Shown here one piece after another: positions 17,509-32,647 of a DNA stretch of 32,972 bases (its first letter is position 1; each line of letters begins with the position of its first letter). A program made the translations under genes and the position numbers. The stretch spans positions 1-32,972 of the forward strand of contig JAHILF010000163.1 in the NCBI GenBank assembly GCA_018897105.1, in the 5' to 3' direction. This stretch comes from Pseudomonadota bacterium. Its GTDB lineage: Bacteria; Desulfobacterota; Desulfobulbia; Desulfobulbales; SURF-16. Under the pieces are notes generated by a model that saw nothing but the letters and a program-made list of their open reading frames with translations, was not told the DNA's origin and did not search any database.

Positions 17509-17529
17509 TTTTACTTCCCCGAGGTAAAA
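17509..17529 (+). promoter_or_regulatory. Hairpin overlapping the ribosome binding site of the small Sec gene
   Basis: Nine-base arms 17509-17517 and 17521-17529 pair around a CCC loop, with one G-U pair. The 3' arm runs into the AAAAGGAT that would serve as Shine-Dalgarno for ATG 17544, so the hairpin could limit ribosome access or act as a binding site. The pairing is seen in the sequence; any regulatory role is inference. Confidence 0.45.
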
Positions 17530-17543
17530 GGATAAGAATAACA

Positions 17544-17699
17544 ATGAAATCCGTTTTATATGCTATTATAGCCATTGCGGCTGCCATATTTTTCATAATG
17601 AAAATAAAAAAAAGCAGCACCTGCACCCCTTGACTGATCATTTACGGATCCATAGGTGTGGGTCTTGCTACCTATTTTCTGCTCAGCAGATTTCTTTAA
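17544..17699 (+). CDS. Candidate 51-aa membrane selenoprotein with CTPU motif (UGA = Sec30)
   Basis: I do not recognise this gene. Read from ATG 17544 with the UGA at 17631-17633 as selenocysteine, the frame runs to TAA 17697-17699 and gives 51 residues. Residues 4-19 form one hydrophobic helix, then KIKK (20-23), then SSTCTPU (24-30), then a second hydrophobic helix (31-47) and SRFL. C27-x-x-U30 is a thioredoxin-type redox pair, placed at the start of the second helix as in thioredoxin folds. AAGGAT near 17528-17533 is a plausible ribosome binding site, and a SECIS-like hairpin lies 18 nt after the UGA. selD in this window is itself a UGA-containing gene, so Sec decoding is likely. If UGA is a stop, only a 29-aa one-helix peptide is made. 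Position and reading are seen; function is unknown, possibly membrane thiol redox. Confidence 0.6.
17652..17675 (+). promoter_or_regulatory. SECIS-like hairpin of the small Sec gene
   Basis: ATAGGT (17652-17657) pairs with ACCTAT (17670-17675), and a G-U pair (17658/17669) can extend it. The apical loop begins with U-GGG and is 10-12 nt. The loop starts 24 nt after the UGA, within the range known for bacterial SECIS elements, which need a G near the 5' side of the loop for SelB binding. The stem is short, so this is supportive rather than decisive. Confidence 0.45.
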
Positions 17700-17756: not shown

Positions 17757-18908
17757 ATGCAGGTAAAAAACTCTCACTACCGTTCCATATGGCCCGATGC
17801 CGAAGATAACACCATCATCAAGATAATTGATCAACGCCTTCTTCCCCACCGCTTTATCATCGAAGAGCTGCGCACTTTGGACGATTTCTGCCTGGCCATC
17901 CGGGATATGCATGTCCGGGGCGCCGGCCTGATCGGGGCAACCGCAGGCTTTGCCATGTATTGCGCCGCCCTCGCCGCTCCCCAGGGAGAGGCTGACTCCT
18001 ATTTCAAGGAGGCCGCGCAAAGGCTGGTTGCCACCCGACCCACGGCCAAAAATCTCGCCTGGGCGGTGGAAAGGCAGCTCGCGCAAATCAGCCCGGAAAA
18101 AGACAGGGAAGGCCGCATCAAAAAATCCTTTCAGGTGGCCTGCGAGATCGCCGATGAGGATGCCTCCTTTTGTCAAAAAATAGGGGAACACGGGCTGAAA
18201 CTTATTGCCGCCATCAGCAAAAAAAAAGGAGGAAAGCCAGTCAATATTCTCACCCACTGCAATGCCGGCTGGCTGGCCTTTGTCGATTACGGTTCAGCCA
18301 CAGCGCCGGTTTATGCGGCCCATCATGCCGGCATCAAGGTTCATGTGTATGTGGACGAGACAAGGCCGTGGCTGCAGGGCGCCCGACTGACAGCCTGGGA
18401 ACTGAAGGAGGAAGGGGTTCCCCATACCCTGATCGCCGACAACACCGGCGGCCATCTCATGCAGCATGGCATGGTGGACCTGGTCATTGTCGGCACGGAC
18501 CGAACCACATATACCGGTGATGTTGCCAACAAAATCGGCACCTATCTCAAGGCCCTTGCCGCCCATGATAACAACATCCCCTTTTACGTGGCCCTGCCAT
18601 CCTCCACCTTTGACTGGGAGATTGAAGACGGCCTCCGCCAGATCCCCATTGAAGAACGCTCCGGCGATGAGGTGAATTACGTCACCGGCCTGACCCGGGA
18701 CAAAAAGCTTGAAACGGTTCTGGTGCCGCCGGAACATACCAGATCGCTCAATTTCGGCTTTGACGTCACGCCGGCCAGGCTCGTGACCGCTCTTATCACT
18801 GAACGGGGGGTGATTGCGGCTGACCGGGATGAAATTTTACGGATGTTTCCGGAAAAAAGGAAGAGGATTAAAGAGATTCAATCACCCGGTCATGAAACAC
18901 GGGCCTGA
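17757..18908 (+). CDS. mtnA: MtnA-like S-methyl-5-thioribose-1-phosphate isomerase
   Basis: A 383-aa member of the MtnA/eIF2B-alpha-like sugar-phosphate isomerase fold, which converts an aldose 1-phosphate to the ketose (methionine salvage, or 5-deoxyribose/ribose-1,5-bisphosphate variants). Seen are MHVRGAGLIGATAGF near the N-terminus, the catalytic-Cys motif LTHCNAG, DETRPWLQGARLTAWEL, and GTDRTTYTGDVANKIGTY with the catalytic Asp, followed by PFYVALPSSTFD. Classical MtnA has GADRI plus an asparagine before GDVANKIGT; here it reads GTDRTTYTGD, so the substrate may differ. I prefer ATG 17757; TTG 17724 upstream would add eleven residues unlike the family. No other methionine-salvage gene is nearby. 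Its end overlaps the convergent hydrolase gene by 41 nt. Confidence 0.85.
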   Translation: MQVKNSHYRSIWPDAEDNTIIKIIDQRLLPHRFIIEELRTLDDFCLAIRDMHVRGAGLIGATAGFAMYCAALAAPQGEADSYFKEAAQRLVATRPTAKNLAWAVERQLAQISPEKDREGRIKKSFQVACEIADEDASFCQKIGEHGLKLIAAISKKKGGKPVNILTHCNAGWLAFVDYGSATAPVYAAHHAGIKVHVYVDETRPWLQGARLTAWELKEEGVPHTLIADNTGGHLMQHGMVDLVIVGTDRTTYTGDVANKIGTYLKALAAHDNNIPFYVALPSSTFDWEIEDGLRQIPIEERSGDEVNYVTGLTRDKKLETVLVPPEHTRSLNFGFDVTPARLVTALITERGVIAADRDEILRMFPEKRKRIKEIQSPGHETRA

Positions 18909-31597: not shown

Positions 31598-32647
31598 ATG
31601 GCATCTGAAAAAAAAATAAAATTGACAGGCACGGTCAAAGCCGCCGGTTGAGCGGCCAAAATAAGTCCAGGGGACCTGGACCAGATACTGTGCGGGCTTG
31701 ATCTGCCCACCGATCCTAATCTGATCGTTGGCGCCGAAGGCTGTGATGACGCCGGGGTATACCGGCTAACGGACGAGTGCGCCCTGATTCAGACGGTTGA
31801 TTTTTTTACGCCCATTGTCGATGATCCGTACCGTTTTGGTCAGATTACTGCAGCCAACGCCTTAAGCGATGTCTATGCCATGGGCGGCAAACCGCTACTT
31901 GCCATGAATATTGTGGCGTTTCCACTGGGCGAGATGGACAAGTCCGTTTTAAGGGATATTCTGCGGGGTGGCCTGGAAAAGATCAAGGAGGCCGGCGCCC
32001 TGCTGGTGGGGGGGCACAGTATTGAAGACAAAGAGCTTAAATATGGTCTTTCCGTCACCGGCGTGGTGCACCCGGACCGGGTCATGCTGAATTCAGGGGC
32101 TCGACCGGGGGATAAGCTCCTGCTCACCAAACCGCTGGGTACGGGAATTCTCTCCACCGCAATCAAAGGAGGGCTGGCCGGCGAGGAACTGGAAAAGGTC
32201 ATCACGGAATGCATGATCACCTTGAACCGGGTTGCCGGCGATGCCATGGCTGAGGTGGGGGCGCATGGCTGCACCGACATTACCGGATTCGGCCTCATCG
32301 GGCATCTCTTTGAGATGGCCCACGCCTCAAAGGTTTCCATCACTGTTGACACCGCTGCCGTGCCGCTGCTGCAGCAAACCCATGACTTTGCCTCCATGGG
32401 CATCATCCCTGAAGGGGCCTATAAGAATAAAAAGTTTTATCAGAAATGGGTGACCAATCATCTGGCCGAGCTTGATCCGCTGGAGATGATTCTCTATGAC
32501 CCGCAGACATCGGGCGGTTTACTGATCGCCGCTTCTCCCGAGCAACTAGCTGCCATGGAAAAAAAGATCAGAGCCGCCTCATCCCTGCCCTGTGCCGTAA
32601 TCGGTACGGTTCAGGAAGGGGAGGCGGGCAGGATCATTCTGGTTTAG
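31598..32647 (+). CDS. selD: Selenide, water dikinase SelD with in-frame UGA (Sec18)
   Basis: SelD makes selenophosphate from selenide and ATP, the selenium donor for Sec-tRNA and selenouridine. Starting from ATG 31598, codon 18 is UGA (31649-31651) in the context KAAG-U-AAKISPGDLD, aligning with the catalytic Cys17 and Lys20 of E. coli SelD. The frame is open to TAG 32645-32647, giving 349 residues, the normal length. A stop at 31580-31582 and no other start make ATG 31598 secure. Downstream motifs include the NALSDVYAMGG segment, GGHSIEDKELKYGLSVTG, TKPLGTGIL and GCTDITGFGLIGHL. Automatic callers would start at ATG 31880 and lose 94 residues. A SECIS-like hairpin follows the UGA. No selA or selB is in view. 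Confidence 0.95.
31665..31681 (+). promoter_or_regulatory. selD: SECIS-like hairpin in selD
   Basis: GTCCAGG (31665-31671) pairs perfectly with CCTGGAC (31675-31681) around a GGA loop. It starts 13 nt after the UGA, with the apical loop 20 nt downstream and a G at its first position, which fits bacterial SECIS elements bound by SelB. Confidence 0.8.

Follow-up and report, generated by a model that had tools for sequence, protein, structure and literature searches.

A stretch of DNA of 32,972 nucleotides, hereafter the window, contains a very short open reading frame that we regard, with high confidence and on the strength of genome comparison rather than of any protein-level evidence, as a genuine selenoprotein gene, the internal UGA of which would be decoded as selenocysteine (Sec). 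Comparison among relatives demonstrates, at the level of sequence, the gene itself, the signature of UGA decoding, a hairpin following the UGA and a conserved redox-type motif. The original prediction, made from the letters of the window alone, had read this frame as an unannotated tiny membrane selenoprotein, and the family comparison supports that reading.

The reading frame and its product

The start codon, the internal UGA and the terminal stop lie exactly where the original prediction had placed them (Table 1), and with UGA read as Sec the frame translates, as predicted, into MKSVLYAIIAIAAAIFFIMKIKKSSTCTPULIIYGSIGVGLATYFLLSRFL. The open frame upstream of the ATG offers no other start codon. 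The ribosome binding site proposed for this ATG is present as AAGGA, at a spacing that is rather long.

Table 1. Positions in the window of the predicted selenoprotein gene and of associated features
Feature	Position	Strand	Remarks
AAGGA, putative ribosome binding site	17528..17532	+	Ends 11 nt before the ATG
Predicted selenoprotein CDS, 51 aa	17544..17699	+	ATG at 17544; residue 30 is Sec, with UGA at 17631-17633; terminal TAA 17697-17699
First hydrophobic helix (predicted)	17550..17597	+	About residues 3-18; helix 2-21 in the structure model
Cys27-Thr-Pro-Sec30 motif	17622..17633	+	Sec codon UGA 17631-17633
Second hydrophobic helix (predicted)	17634..17687	+	Conserved Y-G-S-x-G-x-G stretch; helix 28-50 in the structure model
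bSECIS-like hairpin inside the coding sequence	17646..17665	+	8-bp stem, loop AGGU
mtnA-type S-methyl-5-thioribose-1-phosphate isomerase gene	17757..18908	+	Relative adjacent downstream in 24/61 loci (window included)
selD, residue 18 a UGA-encoded Sec	31598..32647	+	Part of the Sec machinery

AlphaFold2 modelled one helix over residues 2-21 and another over residues 28-50, the latter beginning with the motif. The confidence of the model was modest (pLDDT 70.2, pTM 0.33) and a fold search with it against the PDB gave no match. In 103 genes of the family, the 13 residues that precede Sec hold on average 2.68 lysines and arginines, as against 0.53 in the N-terminal and 0.81 in the C-terminal tail. 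From this bias and the positive-inside rule we infer that the motif most likely sits in a short, positively charged loop at the cytoplasmic face of the membrane.

Distribution of the family

The searches of the two orders described below read through stop codons and counted them. Among 38 genomes, comprising the window's own and those of relatives, 31 gave a match at E ≤ 1e-3, a degree of conservation that excludes a chance origin of the frame. Exactly one TGA was present in 30 of these matches and none in the remaining one (genome G035), because a Cys codon stands there. A scan of a collection returned six loci, four of them named Desulfurivibrio, Desulfogranum or Desulfobulbus. Throughout the order of the window, the Desulfobulbales, 212 of 257 genomes matched at E ≤ 1e-3, covering 59 of 69 genera, and the proportion among good assemblies was 135/148 at the same threshold; the matches listed for this order had one TGA each, except for the Cys form of G035.

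An even sample of 395 genomes from the phylum yielded 15 matches inside the order and, outside it, a single strong match (G076, E = 3.2e-8) together with five weak ones. A broader profile recovered the same 16 matches plus seven weak ones. The order to which G076 belongs, inferred to be the Desulfovibrionales, had matches in 46 of 199 genomes at E ≤ 0.01 and in 45 of 199 at E ≤ 1e-3, spread over 10 of 43 genera. Exactly one TGA occurred in 49 of the 51 matches listed for this second order; these included every listed match at E ≤ 1e-3 (49 in number), and the other two lay above E = 0.003. Judged by these searches, the family spans two orders and some two hundred species related to sulfate reducers. 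The conservation on both sides of the UGA for which the original prediction had called is thus met, the frame past the UGA being conserved in many species.

Selection on the frame beyond the UGA

In 45 disjoint pairs of genes, the ratio of non-synonymous to synonymous change (pN/pS) was 0.31 over the 17 codons that follow the UGA; the 8 codons that precede it gave 0.36, and identity in the same pairs fell to 0.34 after the terminal stop. These pairs had been chosen on identity of the downstream stretch. When the choice of pairs was based on the upstream stretch alone, on the downstream stretch alone or on the two together, the downstream ratio was 0.40, 0.33 and 0.31, respectively. Since it stayed low under all three choices, protein-like evolution of the frame beyond the UGA holds. 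Purifying selection acts on the upstream stretch as well (pN/pS 0.31-0.36). A stronger constraint on silent sites after than before the UGA was considered and rejected: pS after/before was 0.386/0.597, 0.416/0.512 or 0.497/0.404, the last with pairs picked upstream, and silent-site constraint is not used as evidence here because the result depends on the choice of pairs.

The SECIS-like hairpin and the Sec machinery

In the window the RNA following the UGA is predicted to fold as GGAUCCAU-AGGU-GUGGGUCU, with stem arms at 17646-17653 and 17658-17665 and the loop at 17654-17657 (AGGT in the DNA), 20 nt from the UGA. The rule for bacterial SECIS elements quoted in PMC13188914 asks for a G within the first two positions of the loop and a distance of 16-37 nt after the UGA, and the hairpin of the window meets it.

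Across 103 genes, 637 of 824 stem cells were paired. Shuffling synonymous codons within GC bins 1000 times gave a mean of 605 and never more than 622, although this null does not fully remove relatedness. The complete 8-bp stem was found in 36/103 genes and in at most 22 in the shuffles, and sliding the register by 1-3 nt left only 319-453 pairs. For the stem pair 17/32, silent at both positions, the excess of Watson-Crick pairing was the highest of 120 third-position pairs and the mutual information the second highest. The stem has one more silent pair, 20/29, which was paired in 70/103 genes and fell outside the top eight silent pairs. Several genes favour another register, and in nine genes the loop of the best hairpin lies 28 nt after the UGA. 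Single-sequence folding was only moderately better than chance, with a mean z of -1.22 after the UGA versus -0.52 before it, and the window's own hairpin was weak at -0.29. As far as covariation within the family can tell, the hairpin covaries beyond synonymous shuffles, as a bacterial SECIS would, in keeping with the predicted hairpin with a G-rich apical loop at a SECIS-like distance.

SelA, SelB, tRNA-Sec with the anticodon TCA and a Sec-type SelD were all found in the genome of the window. Absence of selA, selB or selC had been named as grounds for refuting the original prediction and can be set aside, as the two genes and tRNA-Sec are present; its statement that selD in the same window uses UGA for Sec is also correct. 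Order-wide co-occurrence of the family with tRNA-Sec was left unused because many incomplete assemblies that bear the gene lack a strong tRNA-Sec match, and the argument from the Sec machinery rests on the genus g276 (see below). Two genomes (G540 and G541) have a strong tRNA-Sec match and a family member, and the SelA model found nothing in them.

The motif and the rarity of Cys forms

For an analysis of residues, 126 Sec-type loci were cut by identity to 103 unique genes, a set that excludes the Cys forms and 20 separately fetched family loci. Position -3 relative to Sec was Cys in all 103 genes and position -1 was Pro in 99. The motif was accordingly C-x-P-U in 99/103 genes, and C-P-A-U or C-P-T-U in the other four. 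This agrees with the Cys-Thr-Pro-Sec motif between two membrane helices put forward originally. Tyr at +4 and Gly at +10 were invariant (103/103) and Gly at +8 was nearly so (98/103). One of the separately fetched loci, L213 of genome G635, is a divergent homologue (E = 1e-4) that has kept the UGA and lost the motif Cys, with Gly in its place.

A variant with Cys at position 30, which the original prediction had proposed to look for, does exist. Of the loci read, only those of the genomes G022 and G035, which belong to a single genus, have Cys in place of Sec, with the motifs GCPMC and GCPAC. These two forms have also lost the Tyr and Gly that are conserved in helix 2. SelA and SelB occur in both genomes, as does a strong tRNA-Sec match.

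The genus g276, represented by five genomes, is poor in Sec machinery: no SelA is seen, no SelB exceeds the cut-off and the best tRNA-Sec match has E = 1.9e-8, true matches in the window's order lying near 1e-14. None of the five genomes has a family match at E ≤ 1e-3. Three of them were re-searched; one was without a match, one gave E = 0.9 and the third, G485, gave E = 0.0147 at a locus (L214) with a frame of 76 residues in which a hydrophobic stretch is followed by CSPC; G485 itself shows neither SelA nor a SelB over the cut-off. We could not settle whether L214 is a Cys form or chance.

Beyond the two orders, searches of the phylum sample gave weak matches in nine distinct genomes, of which five were inspected as possible sources of Cys homologues. 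In four of these (G105, G111, G398 and G400) the match lies in a short or overlapping frame, in some cases opposite a longer one, and seems fortuitous. The match in the fifth (G372) lies inside a frame of 482 residues without the second Cys and was likewise judged to be chance. Almost all family members among the loci read carry Sec; neither this nor the spread over two orders had been foreseen in the original prediction.

Gene neighbourhood and a Cys-free upstream protein

A typA-type gene lies directly upstream in 30 of 61 loci, and 7/61 have neither an mtnA-type nor a typA-type neighbour. The names of neighbours rest on one representative each, which for typA is a piece of 330 residues. In the window, a ComF/GntX-like gene (below both cut-offs) lies upstream on the opposite strand. 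One genome, G631, has two copies of the selenoprotein gene (L140 and L141), each preceding an mtnA-type gene. In the second order, der is upstream in L173 and look-alikes of it in L158, L174 and L176. A rubredoxin frame ends at or beside the start codon in all four loci read from the genus g65 of this order (L155, L156, L161 and L172), the identity resting on a model match in one of the four; a rubredoxin neighbour was seen in this one genus only. No single partner gene was found among the neighbours, which vary between clades and are mostly not redox genes.

In nine of 30 loci of the second order (L159, L163, L164, L165, L168, L170, L175, L179 and L181, two of them identical), a membrane protein without Cys is encoded 19-55 nt upstream of the selenoprotein gene. 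It has about 62-80 residues and a conserved GSGRTGWP-like end, and a scan of one member gave no model over cut-off. Alignment of its profile with that of the Sec family by hhalign covered 53 columns with a score of 38.3, compared with 12.2 for the reversed control; none of 100 shuffles in which residue class and hydrophobic pattern were kept scored above 18.5. Because the score exceeds both kinds of control, the upstream protein is, by profile similarity, probably a paralogue without the redox pair: it resembles the Sec family over its length and differs in having neither the motif Cys nor Sec.

Known families and earlier reports

None of 31 members reached a curated cut-off in Pfam. For NCBIfam, 24 of the 31 were checked against the cut-offs and none was over; the best E value of all 31 was 4.7e-4. 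Kinship with DUF6132, a family of similar kind, was considered and dropped, DUF6132 not being among the Pfam matches of the 31 members. Table 1 of a 2026 review (PMC13188914; 119 families by its own count), which cites the families of PMC12013261 and PMC1976440, contains no recognisable entry of this kind. The view that no named family has this form hence stands against Pfam, against NCBIfam as far as checked and against that table. No prior mention was found in the open-licence literature of PubMed Central, and mention elsewhere is not excluded.

The deep-Sep study (PMC12013277) tested three Desulfobulbia genomes, of 3,596,428, 6,751,878 and 5,653,142 bases. The genomes G484, G540 and G541, equal to these in bases, all carry the gene. 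Passages of that paper name nine new families, none of which is the present one; the paper notes that the method may miss families without Cys homologues. PMC1914089 cites the view that bacterial selenoprotein families without Cys homologues are extremely rare.

Discussion

If the comparative evidence is carried over to function, the SECIS hairpin in the second half of the frame would make SelB and tRNA-Sec decode UGA 17631 as Sec, and the product would be a 51-residue membrane hairpin of two helices. Its Cys and Sec may form a selenenyl-sulfide as they reduce a substrate or partner that lies in the membrane or at its surface. The bridge could then be reopened by a soluble donor from the cytoplasm, namely rubredoxin in one genus and perhaps a thioredoxin-type protein elsewhere. 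We hold such a membrane-anchored thiol/selenol redox couple only tentatively, at somewhat short of an even chance; its topology, redox chemistry, donor and membrane acceptor are inferred. The more specific picture of a minimal membrane selenoenzyme that forms a heteromer with the Cys-free paralogue in some lineages and passes electrons between rubredoxin or thioredoxin and a membrane acceptor is unlikely to be right.

That the UGA is a true stop, leaving a single-helix product of 29 residues, with the downstream stretch either an element of its own or an extension made by regulatory readthrough, is barely credible. Standard gene calling would end at the UGA, and the purifying selection on the stretch before it would suit a protein that stops there, but the frame downstream evolves as protein too, the in-frame stop is TGA and never TAA or TAG among matches listed at E ≤ 1e-3, no match at that threshold comes from the genus in which Sec machinery is scarce and two genomes have a Cys codon at the very place of the UGA. 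With Sec decoding accepted, the protein could still serve a larger membrane complex as a small accessory subunit, its Sec being regulatory or selenium-sensing and not catalytic. This is doubtful. The small size is compatible with it, the upstream Cys-free probable paralogue hints at a heteromer, and the gene often adjoins translation or ribosome GTPase genes of the typA and der kind; against it, the neighbours vary by clade and therefore imply no single partner, and the near-invariant Cys and Sec point to chemistry.

Chemistry of another sort would be the binding of a soft metal or metalloid ion by Cys-x-Pro-Sec, with the hairpins oligomerising as a small carrier or metal sensor. MerF/MerT-type proteins, which carry mercury, would be the model for such a role. 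The two-helix size, the conserved Cys/Sec pair and a Gly-rich helix 2 suited to oligomers fit this idea, and Table 1 of PMC13188914 includes a MerT-family selenoprotein with C/SxxU. It is nevertheless quite unlikely, as PF02411 is not among the Pfam families touched by the 31 members and no metal-resistance gene was recognised among the 27 neighbour clusters listed, most of them judged by eye. A minimal enzyme of the DsbB/VKOR type, coupling disulfide formation to a membrane quinone, appears highly unlikely. A CxxU at the start of helix 2 recalls DsbB, and one Cys form has weak DsbB matches (NCBIfam E = 4.7e-4, Pfam 0.068, both below cut-off). Among 19 relatives, the window's genome included, DsbB was found in four and VKOR over cut-off in none, with sub-threshold VKOR matches in three, the window's genome among them. 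The kinship suggested by the Cys form was not borne out by profile comparison, hhalign against four DsbB sequences of the same order giving a probability of 0.7%, and the distribution of charges suggests that the motif is cytoplasmic, unlike the periplasmic site of action of DsbB.

Were the reading as a minimal selenoenzyme true, the protein would be among the smallest selenoproteins, and its family would have stayed with Sec almost throughout instead of being the Sec copy of a widespread Cys family. Discovery of bacterial selenoproteins has leaned on Cys homologues; the present family is very short and nearly Sec-only, yet occurs in most genomes of its order, and further tiny Sec-only proteins may remain unseen.

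Two selenoproteins listed in PMC13188914 invite comparison. The putative mercuric transport selenoprotein (PF02411) is also a small membrane protein and has Sec three residues after Cys or Ser, and the CC/Se motif family selenoprotein (NF041239) likewise has CxxU and is of unknown function. The present family differs from both in that its 31 members touched 23 Pfam families at E ≤ 1, none of them PF02411, and 20 NCBIfam families at E ≤ 1, none of them NF041239. In DsbB and VKOR the pair of redox-active Cys residues begins a membrane helix that follows a first helix, which is the arrangement predicted here for Cys and Sec; these enzymes differ in being larger proteins, in the negative outcome of the DsbB profile comparison and, by inference, in that their redox pair likely lies at the opposite face of the membrane.
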